DNA of 27,161 bases from a virus. The notes under the pieces are model-generated. The model did not search any database and was not told where the DNA came from. It was given only the letters and a program-made list of their open reading frames with translations. Position numbers and translations under genes: made by a program. Shown one piece after another: positions 1,436 through 19,527 of the stretch. Each line of letters opens with the position of its first letter. Positions within the stretch are counted from its first letter, which is position 1. The DNA is taken from positions 1-27,161 of IMG/VR virus record IMGVR_UViG_3300046000_008345; one strand, 5' to 3'.

Positions 1436-3421
1436 TTAGTTCGGGCTGCCCTGTGCTTGGCCCGGCATCGCAGCCCCGAGGGACTGGCGAAGTTCGTTCT
1501 CGACCTTCATGCGGTCGGTTTGAGCCTCAAACGCCTTGATCTGCGCTTCCTGCTCTTTGATCTTGAGGTCCATCACCTTTAACGAAGTGTCAGCCTTCAT
1601 TGACTGGTTTTCAGCGGTGAGCTGGGCAATCTGCGTCATGCCCTGCTGAATTTGCTCCTGCACCTGGGGAGGGATGCCCCCGGCCTGCTGTTGATTGGCA
1701 GGGTTAAGCGAGGCCAGCCGCTTGGCGACCTCCTCGTGTTCCGGCCAGTCCATGTTCTTTGCGACCAGATCCCCGAGAACACCCGCAGCGGGCGGGAACG
1801 CCCGGATGAGTTCCGTCATCTGCGTAGCCGCTTCCTCGCGGCGTGACGTGAACGAAGGCCCGGCGTTGACGATGAGGTCGTATTTCCCAAGGCCAAGCTC
1901 GTAGACGAACATCAGCGGTTGGCCGTTGTCGTCGGTTTGGGGCTGACCATCAGGCCCGACCACGGGAACCGGCTGTTGCGTGTTGACCGCCACCGTTGCC
2001 GGTTGCGCGTCCGGACCCAGAACCCGAATGATCCGCTCAGTCGAATAGACGTGCGGGATCAGGTCAATCAACACCCGCCCGGCGTGGCGAATGGCCCGCG
2101 TCAGGTTGTCGATGAAGTGGAACGTCGAAACGTCCCCCTCCCGCTGACGGGCCATGATTGCGCGCCCGCTCGTCTCGTTCGACCTGGCCCCCAAGGATGC
2201 GTCATACATCCCCATGATTGCCTTCATCTCGTCGGACGTAGACAGCGCCTCTTGAAGCGCCCCAGCCGGGATGCCTGCGAACTGTTGCCGTTGAGGAGGC
2301 GTTGAGCCGTCATACTCAATGTAGGCGTGGCTCATCAGGTTGGCGGTTTCCCACTTCGCGCCGTCCGTCTCGAACGCGCCACGCGGGCCGATAAAGGGAG
2401 CCTTGGGGGCCAATGCGACAAGTTCGGTCGCCATCGTCCGCCAGTAGTTATACATCCGCTGACTGTCTTTGGCGTCACGGATCAGCGAGCGCCAGATGCG
2501 CCGGCCCTCATAGTTCACTTCCTCGCCATAGACCGGCACGATGGGGATGTATTTGCCCGGCCAGTCCACGGTTTTCAGCACTTCGGCGCCTGACAGGATG
2601 TGTTGCTTGACGCTGTAGCTTTCCGTCTCCCGAGGCTCGCCCACCGGGCCAACGCCGTTCGCCTCGAATAGATCAATGTTGGCCTGGTATTGCTCCCGGT
2701 CGATGACCTCACCATTCGACAGAAGCAGGATCGTCCGCTTGACCTTCTCCCGGACCCAGTATTCCGCAATCAGAACACCCTCGTCCGTCATCCACGGATC
2801 TGCAAGGCCCAGATAGGGGTCGTCGTTCCAGTTGATCGGCTCGCCCTTGTATTCCTTCTCGTAAGCGTCCTTGGAGACGAAATCCACGACCAGGGCGACG
2901 TTCCAGTCAGAGCTATCAGCCGTCGTCGAGAACGGATCACCGAACACCGCCAGCGGGTTGGCGATGCGCTCAATCACGATGTCCTGCTCGAACGTGTCGT
3001 CCGTGGCGTATCTCGTATTGATCTTGAAATAGCCGAAGCCACCCGTCACCGCGCACTCGAGCGCCGTGTCATAGGCAACGTCTGCGTCCGAGGTGTATTC
3101 GATGTTGCGGATCAGGCCGGAGTAGATGTCCGCGATCTTCACGTCCGCTTTGCTATCCGCCGGGTGAACCTTGATCGAGGGTTTGTTTTGCCGGGCGTCG
3201 TTCACCACCTGGCGAATGAACGCCGGGAGCTTGTTGATCGTCAGGCAGGGGCGCTGGTCATCCTCGCGCTGCTTCCGGACGCTCTCGTCCCATTGCTCGC
3301 CCAGACGGGCAAAGCGAACGTCGTCCTTATAGGCCTCGCGGTTCTGCTGTTCGACTTCCTGCGCAAGCTGATACGCCTCGCGCGCTTCATGCAGGATGCC
3401 TTCGCTCTTGTCGTCGCTCAT
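1436..3421 (-). CDS. P22-type portal protein
   Basis: This 661-aa protein resembles P22 gp1, the dodecameric ring at the capsid vertex through which DNA enters and leaves. Visible hallmarks: an N-terminal helical region with 'RFARLGEQWDE' and 'RPCLTINKLPAFIRQVVNDA', then 'QNKPSIKVHP', 'ALECAVTGGFGYFKI' and, mid-protein, 'GMYDASLGARSNETSGRAI'. The C-terminus (about residue 570 on) is Q-rich and coiled-coil, like the portal barrel. I chose the ATG at 3421 because its ATGA overlaps the stop of the upstream terminase nuclease ORF; an in-frame ATG at 3433 would add four residues. It is followed 15 bases later by the scaffold gene. Confidence 0.9.
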   Translation of the reverse strand: MSDDKSEGILHEAREAYQLAQEVEQQNREAYKDDVRFARLGEQWDESVRKQREDDQRPCLTINKLPAFIRQVVNDARQNKPSIKVHPADSKADVKIADIYSGLIRNIEYTSDADVAYDTALECAVTGGFGYFKINTRYATDDTFEQDIVIERIANPLAVFGDPFSTTADSSDWNVALVVDFVSKDAYEKEYKGEPINWNDDPYLGLADPWMTDEGVLIAEYWVREKVKRTILLLSNGEVIDREQYQANIDLFEANGVGPVGEPRETESYSVKQHILSGAEVLKTVDWPGKYIPIVPVYGEEVNYEGRRIWRSLIRDAKDSQRMYNYWRTMATELVALAPKAPFIGPRGAFETDGAKWETANLMSHAYIEYDGSTPPQRQQFAGIPAGALQEALSTSDEMKAIMGMYDASLGARSNETSGRAIMARQREGDVSTFHFIDNLTRAIRHAGRVLIDLIPHVYSTERIIRVLGPDAQPATVAVNTQQPVPVVGPDGQPQTDDNGQPLMFVYELGLGKYDLIVNAGPSFTSRREEAATQMTELIRAFPPAAGVLGDLVAKNMDWPEHEEVAKRLASLNPANQQQAGGIPPQVQEQIQQGMTQIAQLTAENQSMKADTSLKVMDLKIKEQEAQIKAFEAQTDRMKVENELRQSLGAAMPGQAQGSPN

Positions 3422-4167
3422 CCGCCCATCCATCCGCCGGCGCCTTGCGGGCGGGGCCTCATATCGCGCTCTACACGCGGACCTGTTCTCGCCATGCGGC
3501 GCATCATCATTCCGTATCGAGACGCTGAAATCCGGTCGTCCTTGACCTTCACGATCAAGCCCTTCTCCCGGTGATACAGCCGAAACTCACCGATCCAGCC
3601 GACACAGGTGCGAAACACCTTCCATCGCCCCGTCTCCATGCGTGTGAGCATTTCGGAGACGCCAGCCTCAACGCCGTTGGACCCGTCCTCAAACGTGGCT
3701 TTCTCGTGCAGCATCTCCAGGCCCTGCTGACGATACTGTTCGGCCAGTTGCTCGCCCGAGCCCTTGTCATGTTGGAGCCCGTCATGGGGCCACGCGCACG
3801 GTATCCAATGCCCCCAAGGCTTGACCGCCGCCGCGTGAATGATCGGCGTGGATTCCCTCGCGGCATATTCCCGCGTCACGTAGATGCAGTCCGCATCCTT
3901 GTCCCATGCCAGCCCGACGCAGGCGAATGGGTGATCCCAGCCGAAGTCCAGGCCGTTGATTTGCGCCCAGTGTTTCGGGATCGCAAACGGCTCAACAATA
4001 ATGCTCTCTTCCGTCACCGGGAACACGCGACCAGACCCCATGATGGGAACGCCCTTGGTCCGCGCCTCCCGCTCATGTGGCGGATAGCTGGCGATGATCT
4101 CCGCGCGCTGTTGCGGCGTGTAATGCTCCGCGTCGTCGATCGTCATGGTCGTTACGTGGCGGCTCAT
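3418..4167 (-). CDS. terL: Terminase large subunit, nuclease part (separate ORF)
   Basis: This 249-aa protein matches the C-terminal half of a phage large terminase, the RNase H-fold nuclease that cuts the concatemer. It contains 'RHVTTMTIDDAEHY' near the start, 'MGSGRVFP' (43-50), the first acidic site 'GLDFGWDHP' (D74) and 'WPHDGLQHDKGSG' (D129), followed by a 'FRLYHREKG' segment and a DD pair near residue 216 that could supply the remaining metal ligand. In relatives I remember, this sequence follows the ATPase domain in one continuous chain; here it starts at its own ATG, whose ATGA overlaps the ATPase ORF stop, so it is in the -1 frame relative to it. Either a true two-subunit split with translational coupling, or one sequencing/mutational indel near 4165. 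Confidence 0.85.
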   Translation of the reverse strand: MSRHVTTMTIDDAEHYTPQQRAEIIASYPPHEREARTKGVPIMGSGRVFPVTEESIIVEPFAIPKHWAQINGLDFGWDHPFACVGLAWDKDADCIYVTREYAARESTPIIHAAAVKPWGHWIPCAWPHDGLQHDKGSGEQLAEQYRQQGLEMLHEKATFEDGSNGVEAGVSEMLTRMETGRWKVFRTCVGWIGEFRLYHREKGLIVKVKDDRISASRYGMMMRRMARTGPRVERDMRPRPQGAGGWMGG

Positions 4168-4871
4168 TGGTCAGCCTCCGCGATCAGGAACATGCTCACC
4201 ACGTCCGACATACCCAGCAGCGGCGTGAACGTCAGGAACACCATCCCACCCGTCGCATTGGTCCGCGTCAGGCCTTCCATGTAGATATCCTGCGGCGGCT
4301 CCTCGTCGAACCACACGCCGTCCAGCGTCTCGCCCTGCCACTTCTCGCGACCCTGGTCGTATGACTTGAACCCGAGCGTGGCCGTCTCGCCGCTTACATG
4401 CTTGACCAGCACGCTATCGAGCGCGTCGGGAACACCCTGACGCATGGACCAGTCCACCAGCAGGTCGCCGGGAATAAACCCCTCGCCCCACTTGGCCCGA
4501 TCCTTCGGCTCACCGACCAGAAGGCGCTGCACACCATCGCGCGTGACCTCGCCGGTTTTGGACCCGGCCCACCAGCGCGTCGGCTTGTCAAAGCGCCGGC
4601 CAAGCCACCAGTCGGGATAAAGGCCCGTCAGGTGAAACGACACCTCAGCGGCGCCGGAGAACGTCTTGCCTAGCTGATTGCCCGCCATCAGAAGCCGCTC
4701 GCGGTGATCCGCGCCAGCCTCGTGGAACTCTCGCTGCTTAGTGTATGGCCGATAAGTCTTGAGACGATTGCGCCTCGCCCGCTTCGCCCGCTCCTCCAGC
4801 AGCGACACCAGCTCCGACTTGAAGTCCAATGACACTGGCGAGGGTGCGGATGCGAGCGTCAAGCTGCTCAT
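4164..4871 (-). CDS. terL: Terminase large subunit, ATPase part (separate ORF)
   Basis: This 235-aa protein is the packaging-motor ATPase half of a large terminase. It has an adenine-binding-like stretch 'YRPYTKQREFHEAG' (40-53), Walker A 'GNQLGKT' (64-70), Walker B 'GVWFDEE' (185-191) with the catalytic glutamate, and the coupling motif 'TFTP' (214-217). It stops at residue 235 shortly after 'LLGMSDVV', exactly where single-chain relatives continue into the nuclease domain. Its 5' end overlaps the small-subunit-like gene by 134 bases, in a different frame; the next obvious ATG lies inside the ATPase fold, so most of the overlap seems real. Alternative GTG/TTG starts within the first 22 codons would shorten the overlap only partly. 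Confidence 0.85.
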   Translation of the reverse strand: MSSLTLASAPSPVSLDFKSELVSLLEERAKRARRNRLKTYRPYTKQREFHEAGADHRERLLMAGNQLGKTFSGAAEVSFHLTGLYPDWWLGRRFDKPTRWWAGSKTGEVTRDGVQRLLVGEPKDRAKWGEGFIPGDLLVDWSMRQGVPDALDSVLVKHVSGETATLGFKSYDQGREKWQGETLDGVWFDEEPPQDIYMEGLTRTNATGGMVFLTFTPLLGMSDVVSMFLIAEADQ

Positions 4872-5130
4872 CGGTCAGGTCGCTCGTGGTTTCTATCTTG
4901 AACTCTTTGGGAAGCAGGCCAGCGATGACCCGCATGTAAGCCGCCGGATCTTCCTCGCGGACCTTTGCCAGCGCGGCAACGCCGTGTTCCGCGAAGTCGT
5001 CGTGCAAGGCGGAAACGAACGCCTCGCCAAGTTTGTTCCTGGCGCCCTTTGGCCTTCCGGTTGGGTTTCCAGATTGGCCGGGTTTGAACAGATGCTCGGG
5101 CGTCTGTTTTTCGCCTGTATCATCAGACAC
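4738..5130 (-). CDS. DUF5681-type protein, putative terminase small subunit
   Basis: This 130-aa protein begins at GTG 5130. It carries the DUF5681-like signature 'FKPGQSGNPTGRPKGARNK' (residues 16-34), seen in proteins encoded just upstream of phage large terminases, then a short helical segment 'GEAFVSALHDDFAEHG' and 'DLTDEQLDARIRTLA'. The last ~25 residues (Gly/Ala-rich) are low in complexity and coincide with the region read in another frame as the TerL N-terminus, so they may simply be run-on. A role in DNA recognition for packaging is inferred from position and from the basic GRPKGARNK patch. It is the first gene after a 234-bp leader. Confidence 0.6.
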   Translation of the reverse strand: MSDDTGEKQTPEHLFKPGQSGNPTGRPKGARNKLGEAFVSALHDDFAEHGVAALAKVREEDPAAYMRVIAGLLPKEFKIETTSDLTDEQLDARIRTLASVIGLQVGAGVAAGGAGEAGEAQSSQDLSAIH

Positions 5131-5235
5131 GGGTGTCAGACCTTTTCGGCTTCCTGACGGATTGGGTTCAGGCCACGGTCAGCGGTCATGTATGCGCTTG
5201 GCGTGGGTGAGGCCGTGCCGGGCCTGAATGGTGAA

Positions 5236-5264
5236 TTTAGAGACGCTTGCGCTAACGTGGTGAA
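5236..5264 (-). promoter_or_regulatory. Weak candidate promoter for packaging/head genes
   Basis: On the minus strand TTCACC (complement of 5259-5264) is followed after 17 bases by TCTAAA (complement of 5236-5241), each matching four of six sigma-70 consensus positions. The spacing is ideal but the match is modest; a late promoter using another signal is just as possible. Confidence 0.18.
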
Positions 5265-5338
5265 GCGGCTTTGCCGTCACCGGGTTCTGGCGTGCGTTGC
5301 CGCTTGGTGCGCCGTTGGCCCCAGATGCGAAGCATCAT
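5252..5338 (-). CDS. Possible 28-aa basic peptide
   Basis: A short ORF starting ATGATG, with GGAG about six bases upstream, encodes a 28-residue very basic peptide (MMLRIWGQRRTKRQRT...). It lies alone in the leader between the NusG-like gene and the small terminase-like gene. A good ribosome site argues for translation; the length and lack of recognisable family argue for caution. It could equally be a leader ORF affecting downstream expression, or chance. Confidence 0.25.
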   Translation of the reverse strand: MMLRIWGQRRTKRQRTPEPGDGKAASPR

Positions 5339-5364
5339 TGCTCCATTTGGTATCACGAGGCTTG

Positions 5365-5907
5365 TCAGGCCGCAACATTCTGTTTCTGAACGTCCGTTGC
5401 CGCGATCTGCATCGGGCCTCCTGTCAGCCTTCCCAGCGCCTTGAGGAAGACCCGGACGCGCTTTGCTCCCGGCTTTGCTTCCATGATGGTGGCAAGCTGA
5501 CCGGCAAAGGGGCCTCCGATAATCAGAACCGGGTCGTTTGCGTTGAGGTCCAGGCCCTTGCCTTTCGTGTGGTCAAAGTGGCCGGCGCGCTCGCGTTCGC
5601 GCATCTCGTGGACCCACTCGAACGGGATAGGCTGGGGCCTGCCCATGCGGGAACCGCAGACGGTCAGGATGGATTCAACGCCCTCAGTCCCTCGCACCTT
5701 CCAGCAAAACCATGCGAGGTCCGCATCTTCCGGGAGCTTGGCAAACAGGTAGCGGGGGAAGATCGGGCGATCCACCGTATCCTTGACGCGGGCGTGTGAG
5801 CGAAGGTGGCGCTCTACGGGCACATAGGCCTCAATGCCATGTTCGGCGAGACGGGCCACGGCGCGCATCTCTTGGCGGGGAGCGCAGGAGGCAACAAACC
5901 AGGTCAT
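5365..5907 (-). CDS. NusG/RfaH-like transcription elongation factor
   Basis: This 180-aa protein has the two-domain plan of NusG paralogues. The N-terminal NGN-like domain starts 'MTWFVASCAPRQE' with the beta-alpha pattern 'RLAEHGIEAYVPVERH' (20-34) and the conserved 'FPRYLFAKL' strand (50-58). A KOW-like motif follows: 'NDPVLIIGGPFAGQLATI' (124-141) and 'RVRVFLKALGR'. NusG binds the RNA polymerase clamp; specialised paralogues (RfaH type) suppress termination in selected operons. The ATG overlaps the previous stop (ATGA), and the gene is the last before the leader of the packaging/head operon, so a role in readthrough of late genes is likely but inferred. Length matches bacterial NusG. Confidence 0.85.
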   Translation of the reverse strand: MTWFVASCAPRQEMRAVARLAEHGIEAYVPVERHLRSHARVKDTVDRPIFPRYLFAKLPEDADLAWFCWKVRGTEGVESILTVCGSRMGRPQPIPFEWVHEMRERERAGHFDHTKGKGLDLNANDPVLIIGGPFAGQLATIMEAKPGAKRVRVFLKALGRLTGGPMQIAATDVQKQNVAA

Positions 5908-6509
5908 GCGCTTGCTTCCTGCTCATACGCCCACCGCTCAGCGTCGATTAGCGCCCGTTCGCGCTCTGCCGTCCATTCGTGTGTGTTGACGCGGTAGGCG
6001 GGCTTTTCGGTGAAGGGTTTGATCCAGCTAGGCTCATGCCAGCGGAGGCGGTTGCCTGGGTAAGCGGCGATGTGTCCGCTATCCAGTTGGATCAGGTGAT
6101 GCTGTTTGTGTTGATCGGGCATCTCGGAATAGTCGGACTTGCACCAGTCGAGCGTTGCGAGATAGGCGCCGGATCTGGTTTGGCCGTCTGAACAGAACAC
6201 ATCAGCTCGCAGGGTTTCGAGGAATGCGTATTGATGCACGGTCACATCGTAGGACAGACTGTCCCAAAGGCAAAGGGTTGAGAGGGGAAGGGGCTCGCCG
6301 GGCTTGAACGTCAGCGAGTGCAGCGGGAGCCTTGCCCATAGCGCGCCGTTGCGGAGCATGACCGTGAAGAGTGGCGCCCGGCCTTCGAGCGCGACCACGC
6401 CGATGATTGCGGCTTCCGTGTAATTGCCGATGTGGTCCGGGTCCTGGTCGTGCAGGAACTCATCCCTGACAAGGCAGTAGGTGATCGGGAAGTCTGAAAC
6501 GAGGTTCAC
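5904..6509 (-). CDS. Hypothetical phage protein, 201 aa
   Basis: I recognise no domain with certainty. The protein is soluble, has no signal peptide or membrane segment, and is rich in aromatic residues and histidine ('DQHKQHHLIQLDSGHIAAYPGNRLRWHEPSW' region, about 133-163). The latter half of that region reads like a small beta-sheet segment. It starts at GTG 6509, whose GTGA overlaps the stop of the preceding 45-aa gene, and its own stop overlaps the NusG-like start, so the three are translationally coupled. The position between SSB-like and NusG-like genes suggests an early/middle function. Confidence 0.75.
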   Translation of the reverse strand: MNLVSDFPITYCLVRDEFLHDQDPDHIGNYTEAAIIGVVALEGRAPLFTVMLRNGALWARLPLHSLTFKPGEPLPLSTLCLWDSLSYDVTVHQYAFLETLRADVFCSDGQTRSGAYLATLDWCKSDYSEMPDQHKQHHLIQLDSGHIAAYPGNRLRWHEPSWIKPFTEKPAYRVNTHEWTAERERALIDAERWAYEQEASA

Positions 6510-6922: not shown

Positions 6923-7564
6923 TTATGCTGCTCTCAGTTGTTGGGGGACTTGGGTTTCTGGGTGATCGGGTGGCGGGCCTAGTGCGCTTGCCCAGCGGCC
7001 TGTTTGCCGCCAGAGGCCCACCAGGGCTTCCCAATCCGGCCCCACATCGTCATCGACGAAGCTCTGCCAACGGTCGCCCTCGATCAGCCGGTGAACGCCT
7101 TTCGCCATGTCGCCGGAATAGCTCGGCGAGGCATAGGCCGCCCTGATCCCGGCCAGAACGTCAGCCGGGTTTGCTCCCCGCCGCATCGCCGCCGTCAACG
7201 ACCGCTCCAAATCCCCACGGCCTGAACGCTGCCTGCCGATTGCGGGGGTAATTGCCCAGATTGCGTCGAGGTCAGCCTTCGACGGCTTCCGGGGAGCGGG
7301 GGGACTATAGGGGGGTGAGGGGATAGGAGAGTTTTGGTTAGGGGGTGTGGGGGAAAGGGAAAGAGAGGAAAGGGGAGGTGAAGCGTCACTGTTATCGTCA
7401 CCCGTTACGTCACTAGTGACGCTCGTTCTTTTTTTGGCCCTGTATCGGGCCTGACGCTCGGCGCCCTTGCTCCGTCCATTGGTCGCCATCATCTCGACAA
7501 GCTCAATTGCCTGGTCGAACGTCAGACCCATCTCGCGCATTCTCTTCAGGGCTTCGACGTTCAT
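6923..7564 (-). CDS. Putative replication initiator/helicase-loader protein
   Basis: This 213-aa protein has three parts: an N-terminal helical segment ending in a basic stretch 'AERQARYRAKKR' (about 36-47), a Ser/Pro-rich low-complexity linker (about 60-95), and a C-terminal helical domain ('SLTAAMRRGANPADVLAGIR' ... 'GVHRLIEGDRWQSFVDDD'). Similar C-terminal domains occur in phage replication proteins next to DnaB-type helicases, and the ATG overlaps the helicase stop by four bases. The DNA encoding the linker is an origin-like repeat/purine tract (see separate entry), as in lambda O. Role as initiator or loader is inferred. Confidence 0.55.
   Translation of the reverse strand: MNVEALKRMREMGLTFDQAIELVEMMATNGRSKGAERQARYRAKKRTSVTSDVTGDDNSDASPPLSSLSLSPTPPNQNSPIPSPPYSPPAPRKPSKADLDAIWAITPAIGRQRSGRGDLERSLTAAMRRGANPADVLAGIRAAYASPSYSGDMAKGVHRLIEGDRWQSFVDDDVGPDWEALVGLWRQTGRWASALGPPPDHPETQVPQQLRAA
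7291..7421. other. Candidate replication origin: 12-bp iterons plus purine tract
   Basis: On the plus strand 7291-7383 is strongly purine-rich with several runs of four to six G. Immediately beside it CGTCAC occurs at 7384, 7396 and 7408, an exact 12-bp period, the last copy forming the 14-bp perfect palindrome CGTCACTAGTGACG (7408-7421). All of this lies inside the linker of the putative replication protein gene. Iterons next to an asymmetric purine tract inside an initiator gene is the arrangement of the lambda origin. The 12-bp period could instead reflect a 4-residue protein repeat (VTSD/VTGD/DNSD). Confidence 0.4.
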
Positions 7565-8976
7565 GCGGCCCTCGGCAGATCACGGATGGCGCTGCACTCG
7601 ATACGGCAGAACGTCTCAGCGTCCGCTGTAGGGCCTTGGCGGTTTTTGGCGATGATCCACCAGAGGCGGTTTTTATGCTCGCTCAGGGCCTTCAGGTAGC
7701 GACCATAGGCCGTGTCGTCGGCAATCTCGTCGCCGGTCTTAACAGGCTCTTTGATGTAATATTCCGGGCGATACAGGAACATCACCACATGAGCGTCTTG
7801 TTCCAGTTCACCGGCCCAGCGGAGGTCTGACAGGCCGGGGCGGCGGTCCTTCCCCTCGCGCTTCTCAACGTCGCGTGAAAGCTGGCAGAGGGCAATAACG
7901 GGGACTTCCAGCGCCTTCGCCATCTCCCGCAGGGCGCCGCTGATCTCGCCGATCTCGGCAACCTTGTTATTCATGTTCCGCTCGGGCCGCAGCAGGCCCA
8001 GGTGATCCACGATGATGCAGCCGGGCTCTATCCCAGCCTTGCGCCAGTTGCGGACGATCCGGCGGGCCGCTGACGAGACTTGCGCGACACTCAGGGCCGG
8101 GCGAGCGTCAAACATGACAGGCCACGATGCCATTGCCTTGTTGGCCCGTTGCAGCCGCTCCCATTGGCCTTCATCCAGCGAGCCCCATTCGGCTTTGGAA
8201 TAGGACGGGTTGGAATCCTGCCCGCTGTATTGCGGCTCCATCAAGTTAAACGCGACATCGCACGCCATCCGAAGGCCAAGCTCAGGCTCGGTCATTTCGA
8301 GGGAGAAGAACGCAACGCCCTTGCCCTGCATCGCAACATTCTTGGCGATGGACAGCGCGGCGCTGGACTTCCCCATGCCAGGGCGACCGGCGAGGAGCGT
8401 CAGTTGGCCGTTGCGGAGCCCGCCAGTGATCCGGTCAACCTCTTGGAGCCCTATACCCACGCCGGGCATTCCGCGCCGCTCACGGGCCGTCTGGATAGCC
8501 TCCTGCGCCACGAAGGCCAGAGGCTTCCATGCCTCCCGCGAAACGCCGTCACGGGCGATTTCAGCGGCTCCCCGTTCAAGGTGCGCGAGAACCTCGTCAG
8601 AGGTCGTTTCGCCGACCTTGTGCGCGGCCTTGCTGACTTCCTCCGTCAGCCGTGAAATCTCACGCCGGGCGGCACGGTCCAGCACAATAGCCGTGTAACT
8701 CTCAACAGCCCACGGGGAAGCGCGGTCCCATACATCGGCGAGCCATTCCTGCCCGCCCATCTGGGTGAACCCGGCGTCCCCGGAAAGCGCCGCCGAAACC
8801 GTCAGAACGTCGGCACGACCAGCGCGCATCTGCTTCTGAACTTCGGACCAGACCAGCCCATGCACGCCGTCAAAGAAATGTTCGGGGCGCACGCGCTCAA
8901 GCGCGTCGGTGCAATCGTCTGGCGATGCCAAGGCCGACCCAATCAGCGCAATCTCAGCTTCGATAGAGTGGATCAT
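7561..8976 (-). CDS. dnaB: DnaB-type replicative helicase
   Basis: This 471-aa protein has a DnaB N-terminal helical domain ('MIHSIEAEIALIGSALASP', residues 1-19) and a RecA-fold motor domain: Walker A 'GRPGMGKS' (197-204), the DnaB-type 'VAFFSLEMTEPEL' segment, Walker B 'CIIVDHLGLL', and 'ALCQLSRDVEKREGKDRRPG' followed by 'DLRWAGELEQDAHVVMFLYR', all standard helicase motifs H1-H4. The protein unwinds DNA 5' to 3' at the fork as a hexamer. The length is normal for the family. It overlaps the genes on both sides by four bases (ATGA). Confidence 0.95.
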   Translation of the reverse strand: MIHSIEAEIALIGSALASPDDCTDALERVRPEHFFDGVHGLVWSEVQKQMRAGRADVLTVSAALSGDAGFTQMGGQEWLADVWDRASPWAVESYTAIVLDRAARREISRLTEEVSKAAHKVGETTSDEVLAHLERGAAEIARDGVSREAWKPLAFVAQEAIQTARERRGMPGVGIGLQEVDRITGGLRNGQLTLLAGRPGMGKSSAALSIAKNVAMQGKGVAFFSLEMTEPELGLRMACDVAFNLMEPQYSGQDSNPSYSKAEWGSLDEGQWERLQRANKAMASWPVMFDARPALSVAQVSSAARRIVRNWRKAGIEPGCIIVDHLGLLRPERNMNNKVAEIGEISGALREMAKALEVPVIALCQLSRDVEKREGKDRRPGLSDLRWAGELEQDAHVVMFLYRPEYYIKEPVKTGDEIADDTAYGRYLKALSEHKNRLWWIIAKNRQGPTADAETFCRIECSAIRDLPRAA

Positions 8977-9167
8977 TTCAGGTTCACCGCTGCGTCAGCG
9001 TGGCGATAGGCAATCTCGCTGGCCTTCTGGACTCCGACCAAGGCGATCAGAGCCCCCAAGGAATAGGCCAGCATGCCGGCGGCAATCTGGATGCGCTCGC
9101 CGTCGCTTTCAGCGTTCAGGATGGCGTCAGACACCGCAAGAGCGGCGAGAGGAATGGGCTCGCTCAT
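8973..9167 (-). CDS. Hypothetical protein, 64 aa
   Basis: I chose ATG 9167 (MSEPIPLAALAV...), because it overlaps the preceding stop in the ATGA arrangement used throughout this operon; an in-frame ATG four codons upstream exists. The protein is alanine-rich and helical with a mildly hydrophobic central stretch ('IAAGMLAYSLGALIALVGV', about 27-45) that could be a buried helix or one membrane pass. It ends four bases into the helicase gene. Function unknown. Confidence 0.6.
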   Translation of the reverse strand: MSEPIPLAALAVSDAILNAESDGERIQIAAGMLAYSLGALIALVGVQKASEIAYRHADAAVNLK

Positions 9168-9535
9168 GGCTGCACCCACGCCTTGCCGCGATGCCCGAAA
9201 ATCACCCGGCCATCATTCAGGCGAACGGACGAGGCAAACCCGCCCATGCGGAGGCACACGGCGATGTAGAGCGCATCACCGGCCCCAAGATCAAAGGGCG
9301 CGCACCCGTCGCGGGATTGGCCGTCGCTGACGATCTTGCGCGTGACCAAGCCGGGGCCGCTGGCGACCAAACCCTCAACATACATCTTCGCGTGGACGGC
9401 CTTCTCCGAACGTCCGATGGACTTTGCTACATCCGCGCAAACCGTCTTACGGTGTCCGCCCTGGTGGACGCGAGAGCGCAAAACGCCGAGTTCCTCTGAC
9501 GACCACGGGCCGACGCTGGAGGGCTCAAACCTCAT
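9164..9535 (-). CDS. Small Myb/SANT-like DNA-binding protein
   Basis: This 123-aa protein starts at ATG 9535, overlapping the GcrA-like stop (TGATG). Residues 10-52 look like a three-helix DNA-binding unit: 'PWSSEELGVLRSRV', then 'VCADVAKSIGRSEKAVHAKM', in which a tryptophan-led first helix and a 'IGRSEKAVHAKM' recognition helix are typical of Myb/SANT-like phage and GcrA-like HTH domains. The rest contains 'SSVRLNDGRVIFGHRGKAW', a probable beta hairpin. A regulatory or DNA-recognition role is inferred. A longer ORF extends upstream through the GcrA gene but that part is a shadow. Confidence 0.55.
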   Translation of the reverse strand: MRFEPSSVGPWSSEELGVLRSRVHQGGHRKTVCADVAKSIGRSEKAVHAKMYVEGLVASGPGLVTRKIVSDGQSRDGCAPFDLGAGDALYIAVCLRMGGFASSVRLNDGRVIFGHRGKAWVQP

Positions 9536-10119
9536 CACGCCACCTTCCGTGCGAAGTTGGGTTGCGAGTATCCGGCCCAGCTTTTCGGCATGTCGCCGCG
9601 CATTACGCGGGCGTGCGTTGTGCAGTAGGTCGCGCCCTTGGTCGGGTTGCAGCAGGAGCGCGTATCGGCGCCATCGCCATCCACCGGGAACGCGCACTCG
9701 CCAAACTTGCGCGAGGTCCACACACGGGGCGCGATTGCCACAGAGGCGTCTACCTCACGGCCATAGGCGCGGGGCTCATGGACGGGGGGAGGGATGACCA
9801 AAAGGGCGCCGTTGCCGGCCACAACGAGCTTTAGCTTGGGGCGTTTAAACCCCCGCGCATAGGACGGGGCGAGGATAGGCTTTTCAGGCTTGGGAACCTT
9901 CGCCACCTTCACCGCGTTGTTAGTCTGCGGCGGTGTCGCCTTGCGGCGGGTGGCGTCGGGCTTCATGGCCCCGATACGGTGCAGCTTGCCCAGCACGGCG
10001 GAACGGGTGACGGTCGGGCCACGAAGGCTCAACAGGTCGGCAATGTCAGTTCCCGACTTGCCTTCAATCCACCACTGGACGCTTTCGCGCACAATGTCGT
10101 CTGTCCATTCAAAGGCCAT
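9535..10119 (-). CDS. gcrA: GcrA-family cell-cycle regulator (phage-encoded)
   Basis: This 194-aa protein shows the GcrA family layout. At the N-terminus is a DNA-binding domain: 'FEWTDDIVRESVQWWIEGKSG' then 'SAVLGKLHRIG' (40-50), closely parallel to the 'RNAVIGKVHRLGL' segment of GcrA. A basic, Pro/Lys-rich linker follows, and the C-terminus has the Cys/His-containing pattern 'FGECAFPVDG' (139-148), CC (156-157) and 'YCTTHA' (165-170), matching the GcrA end domain. Host GcrA binds sigma-70 RNA polymerase and activates promoters containing methylated GANTC. ATG 10119 overlaps the HNH stop (TGATG). A phage copy could redirect this circuit or compete with host GcrA. Confidence 0.85.
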   Translation of the reverse strand: MAFEWTDDIVRESVQWWIEGKSGTDIADLLSLRGPTVTRSAVLGKLHRIGAMKPDATRRKATPPQTNNAVKVAKVPKPEKPILAPSYARGFKRPKLKLVVAGNGALLVIPPPVHEPRAYGREVDASVAIAPRVWTSRKFGECAFPVDGDGADTRSCCNPTKGATYCTTHARVMRGDMPKSWAGYSQPNFARKVA

Positions 10120-10472
10120 CAGGCTCCCCACCTTTTCTGAAAACCCCGGCTTTGCAGTTTGCGCGTCGAAGCTGGCGCAATGCCAAGGTGTTTTTTACGG
10201 ATGCGGTCGGTCTTCGCCCGTTCGGCAACGTCAGCCGCCGTCTTCTCCCGGTGCTTGTCGCGCAAAGCCGGGAACAGGTTGCTTTCAGCGTGCGCGCCGC
10301 CGTTGCAGAGGGCTTGTCGGTGATCCAGGTCCCACTGGTCCCCAGCCATGATCTTGCGGCCCGTGAGGTGACAGCGGCCACCTTCACGTTCCCAGATGCG
10401 AAGGCGAACCCGAGCGGGGACTTTCGCGTCTGGACTAGATCCAATCCATTCAGCAACGGTGCGCCCGCTCAA
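10119..10472 (-). CDS. HNH endonuclease (classical type)
   Basis: This 117-aa protein has a complete HNH nuclease core: 'GRCHLTGRKI' (one Cys; not the usual CxxC pair), 'DLDHRQALCNGG' with D50-H51, N65 in 'AHAESNL', and H74 in 'RDKHREKTA'. It differs from the three HNH_3 proteins on the other strand. The start is a TTG whose TTGA overlaps the preceding stop. In phages such small HNH proteins sit near packaging genes as nickases or act as free-standing homing enzymes; here it is an early gene beside gcrA, so no specific role can be assigned. Confidence 0.85.
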   Translation of the reverse strand: MSGRTVAEWIGSSPDAKVPARVRLRIWEREGGRCHLTGRKIMAGDQWDLDHRQALCNGGAHAESNLFPALRDKHREKTAADVAERAKTDRIRKKHLGIAPASTRKLQSRGFQKRWGA

Positions 10473-10642
10473 CGCCCCATCTCCGCCCGCAGAATGGCGT
10501 TCGTTGCCGTAATCAGCGCCGCCCGCGTGTGATGAATTTCCCGAGTGTCTCCCCGGTTCATCGCGTCACGATGGGCGAGGAAGGCGCGTGATCTGGCGCG
10601 AACCAGCTTGGCAATGCGGTATTTCTTGAACAGATTGAACAT
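10469..10642 (-). CDS. Small basic hypothetical protein, 57 aa
   Basis: I chose ATG 10642 (MFNLFKKYRIAKLV...), preceded by GGAGG four bases upstream; a second ATG at 10654 is also near a ribosome site. The protein is strongly basic and helical ('KLVRARSRAFLAHRDAMNRG', 'HHTRAALITATNAILRAEMGR'). Its upstream in-frame extension runs through the HTH gene and is a shadow. The stop overlaps the TTG of the HNH gene. Function unknown. Confidence 0.55.
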   Translation of the reverse strand: MFNLFKKYRIAKLVRARSRAFLAHRDAMNRGDTREIHHTRAALITATNAILRAEMGR

Positions 10643-10668
10643 GTATCCTCCCATTGCCTCCCCCTCGT

Positions 10669-10699
10669 GGGGCCGGTCAGTTGCGCGCTGACCGGCCCC
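10669..10699. repeat. Perfect 12-bp hairpin between HTH gene and next gene
   Basis: GGGGCCGGTCAG (10669-10680) and its exact reverse complement (10688-10699) enclose a 7-base loop. It lies in the 100-base gap between the HTH gene stop (10743) and ATG 10642, just ahead of the ribosome site. There is no U-run on either strand, so it is not a standard intrinsic terminator; it may attenuate, protect the RNA or pause transcription. Confidence 0.6.
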
Positions 10700-10742
10700 T
10701 TCGCTAGCGCCTCCGGGGGAGGAACGGGCGCCGCGAATGGTG

Positions 10743-10934
10743 TCAGGCGGGCTCGGTTTGCTTGAGCCGCGCCAAAGTGGCTTTGCGAGGAAACGCCGCC
10801 ATGAGATCGGGCCACGCCGTCCGGGGGATAGCGTTGCGGGAGCGCCAGGTAGCGACGACGCCCGGCTTGACGCCGATCTTTTGGGCGACGACGCCGTAAG
10901 CGCCAAGCTCATCGAGAAGGGTTTTCGCGTTCAT
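10743..10934 (-). CDS. Cro-like HTH regulator (carph-isopro type)
   Basis: This 63-aa protein is a single helix-turn-helix domain: 'LLDELGAYGVVAQKIGVKPG' (helices 1-2) and 'VVATWRSRNAIPRTAWPDLM' (recognition helix plus the IPRTAW element). The pattern 'WRxRNxIPxxxW' matches short Cro-like regulators (the so-called carph-isopro domain) that I associate with Caulobacter-type genomes. It is the first gene of the leftward operon and faces the operator-rich gap at 10935-11045, so it probably represses or autoregulates there. It is too short to have a CI-type cleavage domain. It begins with ATG 10934 without a clear ribosome site, hinting at a leaderless or weakly translated message. Confidence 0.75.
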   Translation of the reverse strand: MNAKTLLDELGAYGVVAQKIGVKPGVVATWRSRNAIPRTAWPDLMAAFPRKATLARLKQTEPA

Positions 10935-11045
10935 GGCGACACCATTGCACAGGGCCGAAATGTTGTCACCCTGAAAATGTTAGCTTGACGGGGCGATTTT
11001 CAGGGCGTCATATGGTGACAGCAAAACGAACCCGCCGGAGAGCAA
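10935..11045. promoter_or_regulatory. Divergent control region with nested inverted repeats
   Basis: This 111-bp gap separates the two operons. It contains a perfect 10-bp inverted repeat, CCCTGAAAAT (10969-10978) and ATTTTCAGGG (10996-11005), separated by 17 bp, and around it a second pair, TGTCACC (10964-10970) and GGTGACA (11014-11020). These look like operators for the adjacent HTH protein. The arms flank a rightward promoter match, so binding would block it. A leftward promoter is less clear: TTGCTG (complement of 11019-11024), 17 bases, GAAAAT (complement of 10996-11001). Confidence 0.6.
10985..11013 (+). promoter_or_regulatory. Candidate rightward promoter
   Basis: TTGACG (10985-10990; five of six -35 positions) is followed after exactly 17 bases by TCATAT (11008-11013; weak -10). 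It lies inside the nested operator repeats and would start RNA about 25 bases before the first rightward gene, with GGAG just ahead of ATG 11046. Confidence 0.4.
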
Positions 11046-11339
11046 ATGTCCCGCCCGATCACCGCCACCATCCTTGTTGAACTTGAGGTCACCGTCGAGG
11101 CGACCCGCGACCAGTGGGGTTTTGACATTGTGGACGTTCGCGCCGTCACTGGATACGACGGCGCCAAGCGGGTTCACACCATGACCCCTTCCTATCTGCC
11201 GACCGAGCTGGCCGAACTGATCAGCCATCACTTCGGCCCGGACGCTGAGAGCGCCATCAGTGCTGCGTTTGCCGACGAGAACCGCTCCGACGATCTGGTC
11301 GACCTCGCCTATGAGCGTTCGCGCGAAGGCGGGTTTTGA
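11046..11339 (+). CDS. Hypothetical protein, first gene of rightward operon
   Basis: This 97-aa acidic protein (MSRPITATILVELEVTVEAT...) has an N-terminal beta-strand-like part and a helical, acidic C-terminus ('LPTELAELISHHFGPDAESA'). No family recognised. GGAG stands six to nine bases before the ATG, and it is the first gene after the divergent control region, so it should be the first product of the rightward promoter. No membrane segment or signal. Its stop overlaps the next ATG (TGATG). Confidence 0.75.
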   Translation: MSRPITATILVELEVTVEATRDQWGFDIVDVRAVTGYDGAKRVHTMTPSYLPTELAELISHHFGPDAESAISAAFADENRSDDLVDLAYERSREGGF

Positions 11340-11692
11340 TGAGCGCCCCCCACACATTCACCGCGACCAGTCCTGCTAACCGGACAGGCTGTAGCGCGGT
11401 GGAAACGGCCCCAGCCTGTGCCCTCCAGGCTGGGGCCACCCAATTCCGCGTGCTCTGGCACTGCGCCGGGGAGCCCGTGTTTAGGGACCACACCGGACGC
11501 ATCCGGCCTATCAGCCTGACCACCCTGCGCGACCTTCGCCGGGCGCTCTGGACGATGGCCCGCGAAACCTCGGGGCGCCAGCGGGACCGGCTCTGCACCT
11601 TGTGGGCCGAAGCCGACGAGGCGCTGACCGACACGGTGCGTTGGCGTCAGGCCGCGTGCGGAATCTTCCTCATTCGGGAGCAAGTGGCATGA
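11339..11692 (+). CDS. Hypothetical protein, 117 aa
   Basis: The start is ATG 11339, overlapping the previous stop by one base; a TTG one codon earlier is possible. The first ~35 residues are Ala/Thr/Cys-rich and probably disordered, followed by a compact part with 'FRVLWHCAGEPVFRDHTGRI' and a helical arginine-rich end. No known motif. The stop overlaps the following membrane microprotein (ATGA). Confidence 0.65.
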   Translation: MSAPHTFTATSPANRTGCSAVETAPACALQAGATQFRVLWHCAGEPVFRDHTGRIRPISLTTLRDLRRALWTMARETSGRQRDRLCTLWAEADEALTDTVRWRQAACGIFLIREQVA

Positions 11693-11766
11693 ACGCCGCC
11701 CGCTACCTCACCGCCGCAGCCCTTTGGTTGATGGTCCTGCCCCTCATGATTTTGGTGATGATGTGA
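11689..11766 (+). CDS. 25-aa membrane microprotein (copy A)
   Basis: The ORF encodes 25 residues, MNAARYLTAAALWLMVLPLM then ILVMM, almost entirely one hydrophobic helix. It overlaps the previous gene by ATGA and the next by GTGA, which argues it is translated. It is strikingly similar to the 30-aa product at 12215-12307 (shared pattern RYxxxAxLWxxVLPxxIL, allowing a one-residue shift). Inner-membrane location is predicted; function unknown. Confidence 0.55.
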   Translation: MNAARYLTAAALWLMVLPLMILVMM

Positions 11767-12218
11767 CTGAACTCGAAATCACAAAAGCCGCACTTTCCGA
11801 GGCCGAAGCCCAGGTGCGCGCCCGTAAAGCGGCACGCGATGCCGAGGTCAATGCGGTCAAGGATCGGTGGGCGCCCGTGGTGTCCGAAGCCGAGACTGCC
11901 GCCGGCCTCGCCGCCCACGCCTACCGGCAAGCGCAGTACGCCGCCACTCCTGACCACCCGTGGACAGGCAAGCGGGTGTTTTGGATCGAGACGATATATA
12001 GCCGCTTCTCCGGCCGTGCGACCTCGACGAAGCGGTATGACGGCATCGTCGAGACCTACCGCCACGGCGTCGATACCGGGCCGGGCTATATGTATATCAC
12101 GCCCGGTCAGGGCTTCGTCCGACTGCTCCTCGCCAGCGGCAAGACCGGCAAGCGCTCGGCCCAACTAGGGGACCGGTGGCAACTCGTCGATGAAGTCACG
12201 GCAGGCGGTGACGCATGA
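11763..12218 (+). CDS. Hypothetical coiled-coil protein, 151 aa
   Basis: I chose GTG 11763 because GTGA overlaps the preceding stop. The first ~60 residues form a charged, heptad-like helix ('ITKAALSEAEAQVRARKAAR', 'AVKDRWAPVVSEAETAAGLA'); the C-terminal part is a beta-rich domain with 'GKRVFWIETIYSRFSGRATS' and 'GYMYITPGQGFVRLLL'. No family recognised. It sits between two paralogous membrane microproteins, so a partnership with them is possible but unproven. Confidence 0.7.
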   Translation: MTELEITKAALSEAEAQVRARKAARDAEVNAVKDRWAPVVSEAETAAGLAAHAYRQAQYAATPDHPWTGKRVFWIETIYSRFSGRATSTKRYDGIVETYRHGVDTGPGYMYITPGQGFVRLLLASGKTGKRSAQLGDRWQLVDEVTAGGDA

Positions 12219-12307
12219 CCCCGCTCGCTCTCATCCGCTACGCGCTCGCCGCACTGCTTTGGTGTGTCGTGCTGCCGTTTCTTCTGATCCTGGCCTTTGG
12301 AGGCTGA
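12215..12307 (+). CDS. 30-aa membrane microprotein (copy B)
   Basis: The ORF encodes 30 residues (MTPLALIRYALAALLWCVVL PFLLILAFGG), a single predicted transmembrane helix. ATGA overlap with the previous stop supports translation. It resembles copy A at 11689-11766 in the RY...LW...VLP...IL core, suggesting duplication within this operon. Confidence 0.55.
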   Translation: MTPLALIRYALAALLWCVVLPFLLILAFGG

Positions 12308-12311
12308 ACCT

Positions 12312-12470
12312 ATGACCCGCGCCGATTGCATGGAAGCCGCCGACCGGCTGGAAGAAGCGAAGGCCGACCTTCGCGCCGCCACGACACAGGCAGAGCTGGA
12401 AGACGCCCGCGAGGAAATCAACTACTGGCGCCGCGTGCTGTTTTTTGCCGGAACGGAGGAAGACCAATGA
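12312..12470 (+). CDS. Small helical protein, 52 aa
   Basis: The 52-aa product (MTRADCMEAADRLEEAKADL...) is a highly charged, probably coiled-coil helix ending 'FFAGTEEDQ'. It begins four bases after the previous stop and its own stop overlaps the next ATG (ATGA). Function unknown. Confidence 0.6.
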   Translation: MTRADCMEAADRLEEAKADLRAATTQAELEDAREEINYWRRVLFFAGTEEDQ

Positions 12471-12790
12471 CTGACCGCCACGCAATCCCAGCCGAAGACA
12501 AGCGCCTTGCGTTCGAAGTCATCACCGAGGCCGGGCGCATCAACCTCGCTCTGGCAGGTGATACCGCGACCATCGCAGCTATCGAGCAAGGCCTTCGCGC
12601 GTCTATCCGCCTTCGCCGCCTCGCTCAGACAATGGAGACGGCCCTGCGCCGCCAGAAGGCCGCTGCGGTCAATGCCGAGCGCATCGCCCTGCGTGACGCG
12701 GAACGGGCCGAACGCCGGAACGACGACATCCGCCGGGCTAGGGGCCTTCCTACGGGGAGCCCCGATCTCGCCATCCCGGGAGCGGCATGA
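12467..12790 (+). CDS. Hypothetical helical protein, 107 aa
   Basis: The start ATG 12467 overlaps the previous stop; an upstream in-frame extension is a shadow. The protein is helical and rich in Ala, Arg and Glu ('LRRLAQTMETALRRQKAAAV', 'NAERIALRDAERAERRNDDI'), likely a coiled coil. No recognised domain. Its stop overlaps the HNH start. Confidence 0.65.
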   Translation: MTDRHAIPAEDKRLAFEVITEAGRINLALAGDTATIAAIEQGLRASIRLRRLAQTMETALRRQKAAAVNAERIALRDAERAERRNDDIRRARGLPTGSPDLAIPGAA

Positions 12791-13254
12791 TGGGTTTCTT
12801 TGAAAAACACCACGACAAGATCGAACTCGGCGCCCCAAGCGGTTGTTGGCTATGGAGTGCGGCGAGGTTCGGCAATGGCTACGGCAATGTCCGGGTGCGC
12901 GGGGAGGCGCGGCTCGCGCACCGGGAAGCCTACGAGGACGAGAACGGCGCTGGATCAGCCGATGGGCTCGTCGTTCGGCACCGATGCGACACGTCTCTTT
13001 GCGTAAACCCCGCTCACCTGGAGGCCGGCACGCAGGCCGACAATGTGCGCGACATGATGGAGCGTGGGCGGCAAGCCAAGGGCGAGGCCCACGGATGCTC
13101 TAAACTCACCGAGGCCGACGTTCGGACGATCCGGGCAACCTATGTTCGCGGCAGAAGCGCTTATGGAGGGCGCGCCCTCGCGCATCGGTTCGGGGTAAGC
13201 CTAGACCTGATCGCCCTGATCATCCGCCGCAAACGCTGGGCGCACGTTTCGTGA
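12787..13254 (+). CDS. HNH_3-type endonuclease, copy 1
   Basis: This 155-aa protein has the HNH_3 core: 'GCWLW' (19-23), 'RLAHREAYE' (42-50), 'RHRCDTSLCVNPAHL' (64-78; H65, N74, H77) and 'GTQADNVRDMMERGRQ'. A C-terminal HTH-like part follows, 'KLTEADVRTIRATY' (106-119) and 'ALAHRFGVSLDLIALIIRRK'. Free-standing nucleases of this kind act as homing enzymes in phages. It is close in both protein and DNA to the copy at 19027-19527, pointing to recent duplication or gene movement. A 55-base gap follows it. Confidence 0.88.
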   Translation: MMGFFEKHHDKIELGAPSGCWLWSAARFGNGYGNVRVRGEARLAHREAYEDENGAGSADGLVVRHRCDTSLCVNPAHLEAGTQADNVRDMMERGRQAKGEAHGCSKLTEADVRTIRATYVRGRSAYGGRALAHRFGVSLDLIALIIRRKRWAHVS

Positions 13255-13309: not shown

Positions 13310-13423
13310 ATGACCCCCGACACCGACACCATCATCGGCCTCATGATCACGGTTGGTCTGTTGGTCGCCTACTTCGCCCTCAGGTCGCTGGCCGAACGAC
13401 ATTTCAAGGATGATGCGAAATGA
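13310..13423 (+). CDS. Single-pass membrane microprotein, 37 aa
   Basis: The 37-aa product (MTPDTDTIIGLMITVGLLVA YFALRSLAERHFKDDAK) has one predicted transmembrane helix (about 8-25) and a charged tail. It lies between two HNH genes and its stop overlaps the next start (ATGA). Unlike the two microproteins upstream it does not share their RY...LW core. Function unknown. Confidence 0.55.
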   Translation: MTPDTDTIIGLMITVGLLVAYFALRSLAERHFKDDAK

Positions 13424-13920
13424 CCCCGGCGCAATTCCTGGCTCGCGTTGAACCGGATGCCAACAGCGGCTGCTGGCTATGGGCCTACGGAGGCCGCACG
13501 AGTGATGGCTACGGCACGGCCCAGCATACGAAAAAGACCCTTCTGGCTCACCGGGTGTCGTGGATGCTGCACCATGGCGAAATCCCCGCTGGTCACAGCG
13601 TTTGCCACAAGTGCGACACGCCCGCTTGCGTGAACCCTGCCCACCTGTTCACCGCCACCCAAGCCGAGAACATGGCGGATATGCGGGCCAAGGGCCGCGC
13701 TGACCGTAAGCACGGCGCCCGGAATGGGCGCGCCAAATTGTCGAACGATCAAGCAATGGAAATCCTGACCCTCTCGAAAATGGGTCTGTTTTCCAAGAGC
13801 GAGATCGCCCGGTCCTACGGCGTCGCGCCGTCGTCTGTCGCCCGCGTCATCAACGGCGAAACCTTCTCCCACCTCATCCATTCCCGCGCCCTTATCGAGG
13901 CTTCCCATGCGAACGTCTGA
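13420..13920 (+). CDS. HNH_3-type endonuclease, copy 2
   Basis: This 166-aa protein has 'GCWLW' (17-21), 'LAHRVSWMLHHGEIP' (42-56), 'CHKCDTPACVNPAHL' (62-76; H63, N72, H75) and 'TATQAENMADMRAKGRAD', then a C-terminal HTH ('LSNDQAMEILTL', 'SEIARSYGVAPSSVARVING'). Same family as copies 1 and 3 but clearly more distant. It overlaps the ERF gene by 14 bases. Confidence 0.88.
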   Translation: MTPAQFLARVEPDANSGCWLWAYGGRTSDGYGTAQHTKKTLLAHRVSWMLHHGEIPAGHSVCHKCDTPACVNPAHLFTATQAENMADMRAKGRADRKHGARNGRAKLSNDQAMEILTLSKMGLFSKSEIARSYGVAPSSVARVINGETFSHLIHSRALIEASHANV

Positions 13921-18652: not shown

Positions 18653-18844
18653 GCCCAACGCCATAAGGGGTTGCGGGGGAGGGTGGTAGGCCCGGAGGGA
18701 CTGTCTGAATCGAGGGAAATCAACGCGATGCGGTGTCAAACCCCGTTTGACGACCCCAAGCCCCGCTTGGCGTTGCGCGGGGAGTGTCAAACCCCGTTTG
18801 ACGACCCCAAGCCCCGCTTGGCGTTGCGCGGGGAGTGTCAAACC
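18621..18844 (+). repeat. GTGTCAAACC motif array with 51-bp tandem repeat
   Basis: GTGTCAAACC occurs at 18621, 18635, 18733, 18784 and 18835. The copies at 18733-18783 and 18784-18834 head two 51-bp units identical as far as I can see, and a third begins at 18835 and stops after 10 bases. Each unit also contains small hairpins: GTCAAAC/GTTTGAC around CCC, CCAAGC/GCTTGG around CCC, and CCCCGC/GCGGGG. This may be an array of integrase arm-type sites or an expandable tandem repeat. Confidence 0.85.
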
Positions 18845-19026
18845 TCTAGCGCCCGAATTGCCACCACTTGCGCGGCTTGACCGTCGCGGCATGAGCATCC
18901 ACCAGCGCGACCACGCCAGCGCGCCGGGCGTCTTGAAAAGCTAGGAGATTTTCGGCAAAATGCCGGGGTGGCGATGCGTCCTACCGCACGACCACCCCTA
19001 ACCGCCAGAGCCCCAAGGAGGCCCCG
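18653..19026. other. Non-coding region after integrase, probable attP
   Basis: This 374-bp stretch has no convincing gene. It holds the tandem repeats at 18733-18844, a GANTC site (18707-18711), and a promoter match for the downstream HNH gene. No tRNA 3' end or other recognisable attachment core was found. Being directly downstream of integrase and full of repeats, it is the best candidate for the phage attachment site and integrase arm sites. Confidence 0.45.
18933..18961 (+). promoter_or_regulatory. Candidate promoter for HNH gene at 19027
   Basis: TTGAAA (18933-18938) and CAAAAT (18956-18961) are 17 bases apart, matching five and four of six sigma-70 positions. It sits 65 bases before ATG 19027, which has an AAGGAGG ribosome site, so this nuclease gene may have its own promoter. 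Confidence 0.4.
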
Positions 19027-19527
19027 ATGGCTAAGACCACGTTATCCGACCAGAACTTTTTTGAGAAGCACGGCGCCAAGATTGCTTTCGCCGGTCCAGA
19101 TGATTGCTGGCTGTGGGTGGCGGGAAAGAACAGCCACGGATACGGCTCGGTCCGGGCGCGCGGACGTGCTCGTTACGCACATCGCGAGGCATACGAGGCC
19201 AAAAACGGGCGCGGCTCTGCTGAAGGCTTCGTCTGCCGCCACAAGTGCGACACCCCGGCCTGTGTGAACCCGGATCACCTTTTGCTTGGCACACAGGCTG
19301 ACAATGTGCGCGACATGGCAGATCGCGGGCGGCGCAGGGTCGTGCCCAGTAATGGCGAAGACCACGGCAACGCCAAGCTTACCGAGGCCGACGTGAGGAC
19401 GATCCGGGCAACTTACGTTCCCCGCAGCAGAACCCACGGGACATACGCACTCGGACGACGGTTCGGGGTCGATCCGGGGACGATAGGCAGGGTCGTCCAC
19501 CGTCAGGCGTGGGGCCATACTTTGTAA
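19027..19527 (+). CDS. HNH_3-type endonuclease, copy 3
   Basis: This 166-aa protein has 'DCWLWVAG' (26-33), 'RYAHREAYEAKNG' (49-61), 'RHKCDTPACVNPDHL' (71-85; H72, N81, H84) and the identical 'GTQADNVRDM' found in copy 1, then 'KLTEADVRTIRATY', also identical to copy 1, and an HTH end ('LGRRFGVDPGTIGRVVHRQA'). It has an AAGGAGG ribosome site and probably its own promoter, unlike the operon-embedded copies. It lies between the presumed attachment region and the lysis genes, with which it converges at a 14-base gap. Confidence 0.88.
   Translation: MAKTTLSDQNFFEKHGAKIAFAGPDDCWLWVAGKNSHGYGSVRARGRARYAHREAYEAKNGRGSAEGFVCRHKCDTPACVNPDHLLLGTQADNVRDMADRGRRRVVPSNGEDHGNAKLTEADVRTIRATYVPRSRTHGTYALGRRFGVDPGTIGRVVHRQAWGHTL

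Follow-up and report, generated by a model that had tools for sequence, protein, structure and literature searches.

The window analysed here, a 27,161-bp IMG/VR virus record, encodes a NusG/RfaH-type paralogue that is probably a Q-like antiterminator of the late operon, recruited at a cognate leader element. This functional idea is well supported by comparative anatomy, namely, the Q-like position of the gene, a leader that covaries among relatives, and a terminator after the leader in most of them. The textbook account of processive antitermination in late-gene control rests on lambda N and Q and a few other examples. If the proposed function is correct, a second, self-sufficient design of late control would be present in dozens of unrelated temperate phages, having apparently arisen twice, and phages would join the users of specialised NusG paralogues. 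Such a system would also supply many natural protein-element pairs for the study of nucleic acid recognition by NusG paralogues, as well as a marker for the start of late transcription in alphaproteobacterial phages.

The NusG-like gene and its genomic position

The gene (positions 5365 to 5907, minus strand) starts with ATG and encodes a protein of 180 amino acids, in which an NGN domain (residues 1 to 103) is followed by a KOW beta-barrel (residues ∼120 to 175). The original prediction of a complete NGN+KOW protein at this locus was borne out by the intact ORF, by the Pfam NusG match, and by structure prediction, which had been proposed as a check: the AlphaFold2 model consists of an NGN domain and a beta-barrel KOW domain (pLDDT 90), and a Foldseek search with this model retrieved NusG and RfaH. 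The assignment of the N-terminal domain to the NusG/Spt5 NGN type combines this fold match with the score against Pfam NusG (PF02357; E = 4.2e-14; 53.3 bits versus a cut-off of 22.2, residues 1 to 103). The C-terminal domain of the window protein scored slightly under the Pfam KOW cut-off (19.5 versus 22.3 bits) and is identified as a NusG/Spt5 KOW domain by the score of the relative L004, which is above that cut-off (22.6 bits), by the profile of the family, and by the predicted beta-barrel. This profile, built from a 41-row family alignment, matched full-length NusG, NGN and KOW together, at 4e-34, as well as RfaH (4e-19) and the NusG-RNA complex 8f5g in the PDB (1e-18). The window protein also matches phrog_6386, annotated as “transcription antiterminator” (1.9e-18). 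Its scores were below the cut-offs of the models for three specialised paralogues, namely, the RfaH equivalog TIGR01955 (65.6 versus 144.5 bits), LoaP NF033641 (19.1 versus 125 bits), and UpxY NF033644 (56.6 versus 100 bits).

The NusG-like gene is preceded, in the same orientation, by small replication-type genes and a gene for a DnaB-type helicase (7561 to 8976, minus strand; Pfam), which form the upstream, replication part of the leftward operon. Downstream, as had been predicted, lie the packaging and head genes, all coordinates being on the minus strand: a DUF5681 gene that is the first late gene and encodes a probable terminase small subunit (TerS-like; 4738 to 5130), the N-terminal (Terminase_6N; 4164 to 4871) and C-terminal (Terminase_6C; 3418 to 4167) parts of the terminase large subunit, and a P22-like portal gene (P22_portal; 1436 to 3433), each identified with Pfam, followed by a scaffold-like gene and a P22-like coat gene (P22_CoatProtein; 2 to 502) that starts at ∼502 and is truncated by the window end. 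With replication-type genes upstream and late genes downstream, the NusG-like gene is the last gene of the replication operon. The untranslated leader that separates it from the late genes (5131 to 5364, minus strand; 234 nt) had been described as the only long one in the leftward operon, and this description held over the span compared, from the operon start near 10.5 kb to the coat gene: the other neighbouring genes overlap or lie 1 to 15 nt apart, and no other gap exceeds ∼25 nt.

Several other features of the window deserve mention. The terminase large subunit gene (3418 to 4871, minus strand) is split into two ORFs that overlap at ATGA, the first with the 6N domain and the second with the 6N tail and 6C; L003 carries an identical split (11269 to 12719), so a lone sequencing error does not account for it. 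The gene that immediately precedes the NusG-like one (5904 to 6509, minus strand) matches phrog_3704, “ferredoxin,” and has no Pfam match, and a GcrA-type cell-cycle regulator is encoded farther upstream (9535 to 10131, minus strand; Pfam, 8.4e-13). Three similar-looking ORFs on the plus strand (12787 to 13254, 13420 to 13920, and 19027 to 19527), the first of which matches HNH_3, may be repeated HNH endonuclease genes. Just past the integrase gene, a short unit is repeated (∼18700 to 18880; protein-level repeat PFDDPKPRLALRGEC), possibly marking the attachment-site region.

The position of the gene is conserved. Among the leader-element loci that include a NusG gene and extend for 2 kb or more downstream, a terminase is located 0.3 to 1.8 kb downstream on the same strand in all 54 (42 of class B, 9 of class C, and 3 of class A; the classes are described below). 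The gene precedes the terminase in the closest relatives, L003 (62%) and L004 (63%), the latter with a terminase and portal of a different kind from those of the window. The same order was found in Bradyrhizobium phage ppBjS10J-1, Labrenzia phage vB_LagS-V1, a phage recorded from Nostoc, Agrobacterium phage Rivra, Rhizobium PPF1, Sinorhizobium phi2LM21 and phi3LM21, and Mesorhizobium vB_MseS-P1, as well as in the IMG/VR loci L006 and L007 and the Bradyrhizobium prophage L019. The gene thus shares one trait with specialised NusG paralogues that antiterminate, its location beside a long target operon with a leader element. A NusG match in the record of Microcystis phage MaAM05 (L010; MW495066.1) was rejected, being part of a secE-nusG-rplK-rplA run that resembles host DNA; the record also carries metabolic genes and is likely a piece of host chromosome mislabelled as phage. 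In the Bradyrhizobium prophage L019, the terminase large subunit gene (9032 to 11299) contains an insertion with Hint-like ends and an overlapping HNH nuclease ORF, which appears to be intein-like.

Leader elements after the gene

Inspection of the DNA after the stop codon of the NusG gene in 13 phages revealed three types of leader element. The window shares class A with L003 and L004, which have the untranslated leader in common with it. Comparison of the three delineates, on the minus strand, a hairpin I (GATGC-TTC-GCATC; 5324 to 5336), which is kept in L004 with an altered stem and loop (GGACGC-TAAC-GCGTCT); a nested stem II (5282 to 5322) that consists of an outer GGG/CCC stem, an internal loop, and an inner GGCG/CGCC stem, with flanks CGCCAGAACCCGGTGA identical in all three phages; and a stem III (GGTGA...TTCACC; 5259 to 5281) with an invariant outer stem and a divergent inside. 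In L004 the class A leader is present, with the element 390 nt from the gene, even though the terminase and portal are unrelated to those of the window. The joint alignment of the three sequences contains little covariation, and the fold is slightly more stable than shuffled sequences in the window (z = −1.2) and L003 (z = −0.6) and more clearly so in L004 (z = −2.7). The class B covariance model R1 has no match in the leaders of the window or of L003 to L007, and the window leader was therefore assigned to a separate class; no match reached the Rfam gathering score in the window or in 11 relative loci. The class A 16-mer alone was rejected as a marker, 10 of its 13 matches being chance occurrences without NusG, mostly in coding sequence.

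Scanning of the window leader recognised neither a sigma-70-like promoter nor an intrinsic terminator. Of the original prediction that a NusG paralogue serves late transcription in this phage, the identity and the placement of the protein stood, whereas the leader lacks the recognisable intrinsic terminator that readthrough of this kind would overcome. The leader does include a C-rich, G-poor untranslated stretch (5189 to 5268, minus strand), within the top 1.6% of the 80-nt windows of the operon, that by its base composition is a possible Rho-loading region.

Class B is the largest class, with 51 distinct sequences, and combines a nested stem and a mini-hairpin: CCCTGA..GYCTC..GAGRC..TCAGGG is followed by CAGTGC(GAAA or UACA)GCTATG and then by a G/C hairpin with a T run after it. 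The 16-nt core of this element (CAGTGCKAMAGCTATG) was searched for blindly in 2.9 million IMG/VR viral contigs, which yielded 91 loci. At 54 of these loci, as well as in three named phages, the core is preceded on the same strand by a NusG-like ORF that ends 101 to 168 nt upstream of it; such an ORF was never found on the opposite strand. Among the remaining 37 loci, 6 have the outer stem, each with <200 nt of upstream DNA, and the other 31, which have no stem, look like chance matches. A search of 396 genomes from a single bacterial family (Rhizobiaceae-like), picked around a genome match, gave eight exact matches to the motif, all with the stem, the terminator, and an upstream NusG gene, compared with four chance matches for a reversed-motif control. 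A covariance-model search of 297 genomes, in which 17 candidates per genome were scored, produced one strong match. When run on three complete phage genomes, the model located a single strong site per genome, and in each case this site was in the late leader.

The predicted three-helix structure of class B is compatible with pairing in 95.8% of cells across the 51 distinct sequences, compared with 17 to 39% in slid controls, a comparison biased in favour of the structure because it was drawn with the alignment in view and because the rows are related. Double changes number 45, compared with 12.4 ± 4.6 in shuffles (0 of 500 reached this count). The inner stem contributes 20 of them at one pair and 8 at another, which would be hard to obtain otherwise.

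The class C element has the form GGCCGGT..TTTCACCCGCCGGG(C/T)GGCTTGTGTCC and often has a terminator after it; one class C row with wrong coordinates, L120, was disregarded. An intrinsic terminator lies within 75 nt after the class B element in 52 of 57 cases (16 of 171 in shuffled sequences) and within 140 nt after the class C element in 6 of 9 (3 of 27 in shuffled sequences); the three class A phages, the window, L003, and L004, have none.

The phage protein could instead act as a NusG-like terminator or brake: early transcription would be stopped at the leader by this protein, or by host NusG together with Rho, and the late genes would start from a separate promoter activated by another factor. 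In most relatives a terminator does immediately follow the NusG gene, and Rho termination can be promoted by housekeeping NusG, according to a 2021 review (PMC7819879). This explanation appears unlikely, given that a plain terminator would need no preceding covarying element of 50 nt and that a dedicated copy between early and late genes, paired with a cognate leader element, is the usual layout of antiterminating NusG paralogues; loaP, taA, and upxY, for example, adjoin their targets, as described in that review (PMC7819879).

In three genomes of class B or related to it, the late operons showed no clear sense-strand excess of internal intrinsic terminators, so that the target of antitermination may be the single leader terminator or Rho. 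The same result is compatible with a leader that acts as an autoregulatory attenuator, or that couples translation of the first late gene through RfaH-like recruitment of the ribosome, without processive antitermination; RfaH in the cell acts mostly via translation and exclusion of Rho, as stated in the review (PMC7819879). Such a leader is a distinctly improbable alternative, leaving unexplained why the class B element stands before an intrinsic terminator in 52 of 57 cases.

Origins of the factors and the proposed switch

In a tree of 50 of the proteins, the leader classes form three groups, and the number of changes of class is the minimum possible; for class B this clustering is partly expected because membership was defined by the motif. 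When E. coli NusG, E. coli RfaH, one host NusG, and four plasmid paralogues were added, the RfaH side of the tree took in classes A and C (100/99), and class B was placed next to NusG (100/99). This topology suggests two origins of the phage NusG-like factors and, because the tree is unrooted and the outgroup sampling is thin, goes no further than a suggestion. The class B and C proteins (for example, those of L009 and L006) have ∼35 to 45 additional N-terminal residues ahead of the NGN domain, an extension that often starts with MQH in class B, contains FPISPTS in class C, and is absent from the window protein.

That the leader element is instead a DNA packaging (cos or pac) signal, with the NusG-like gene an unrelated neighbour, is very improbable: packaging sites often adjoin the terminase small-subunit gene, and the element is always located 0.3 to 1.8 kb upstream of TerL, but the class B element is the same across many diverse terminases, some of them <35% identical, tracks the NusG clade and not the terminase, covaries in the style of an RNA, and precedes a terminator in the transcribed orientation, while the DNA immediately ahead of TerS in L008, L009, L011, and L013 contains another stretch, GC-rich and cos-like. 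This stretch, distinct from the leader element, is conserved in the form GGGGGG..GGTCGAAAGT..CCGCGCCCC..GAGATTTT.

Under the antitermination model, the NusG-like protein would be expressed as the last product of the replication operon. RNA polymerase arriving from that operon, or starting at a leader promoter, would transcribe the leader. Either the leader RNA or the exposed non-template DNA would fold into the class-specific element, at which the NGN domain would load the protein onto RNA polymerase. The loaded polymerase would then pass a stop a short way downstream; in most relatives this stop would be the intrinsic terminator, and in the window phage it may be a Rho-dependent or pause site. 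The NusG-like protein would ride with the polymerase through the terminase, head, tail, and lysis genes. We infer binding, loading, and readthrough from the layout of these loci, and class A would presumably work in the same way as classes B and C. For alphaproteobacterial phages at large, the odds lean modestly toward a widespread switch with at least two origins, one in the RfaH branch and one beside NusG, in which a paralogue and its cognate leader replace Q and the leader represents a new family of RNA or non-template DNA elements.

Relation to known antitermination systems

Lambda Q is encoded at the end of the replication operon, before the late leader. The window gene resembles it by analogy, as the last gene of its replication operon, directly before a late leader with an early stop; the window protein belongs to the NusG family, and the likeness drawn here is one of position. 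NusG-like genes have already been annotated in phages, in phrog_6386 and in several GenBank records, so that the mere presence of such a gene is not new. Apart from phrog_6386, the same protein family is represented by a NusG-like protein of a Helicobacter pylori prophage that was likened to lambda N (PMC11321410) and by a “transcription antiterminator” encoded where the early region of phiLM21-like prophages ends (PMC12429752). Neither the H. pylori account (PMC11321410) nor the phiLM21-like one (PMC12429752) includes a leader element, a terminator, or a fixed position across phages. The accessible part of the 2021 review of specialised NusG paralogues lists no phage ones (PMC7819879), and in the open-access literature neither the leader element nor a fixed position of NusG paralogues at phage late operons was found described. 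What appears to be new here, and is well supported by the comparison of genomes, is the proposed use of specialised NusG-paralogue antitermination, with a cognate leader element, for phage late genes.

The window protein shares the NGN+KOW architecture with RfaH and with the paralogues of plasmids and exopolysaccharide clusters, and the tree places its class on the RfaH side, together with alphaproteobacterial plasmid paralogues. However, the KOW domain of free RfaH is an alpha-hairpin, whereas that of the window protein is predicted by AlphaFold to be a beta-barrel. GafZ of the Caulobacter gene transfer agent is likewise an alphaproteobacterial antiterminator of a phage-type late cluster, but it is reported to act jointly with the NusG of the host, its recruitment taking place near the promoter (PMC11150451), whereas the window factor is itself a NusG paralogue. 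LoaP of Bacillus velezensis regulates antibiotic operons and not phage late genes, and its dfn hairpin is unlike the phage elements. Nevertheless, the gene of this NusG paralogue adjoins its target operon, and LoaP needs a small leader RNA hairpin to override the intrinsic terminator that follows the hairpin (PMC12691694). By analogy, LoaP would be the nearest known working model for the phage switch.
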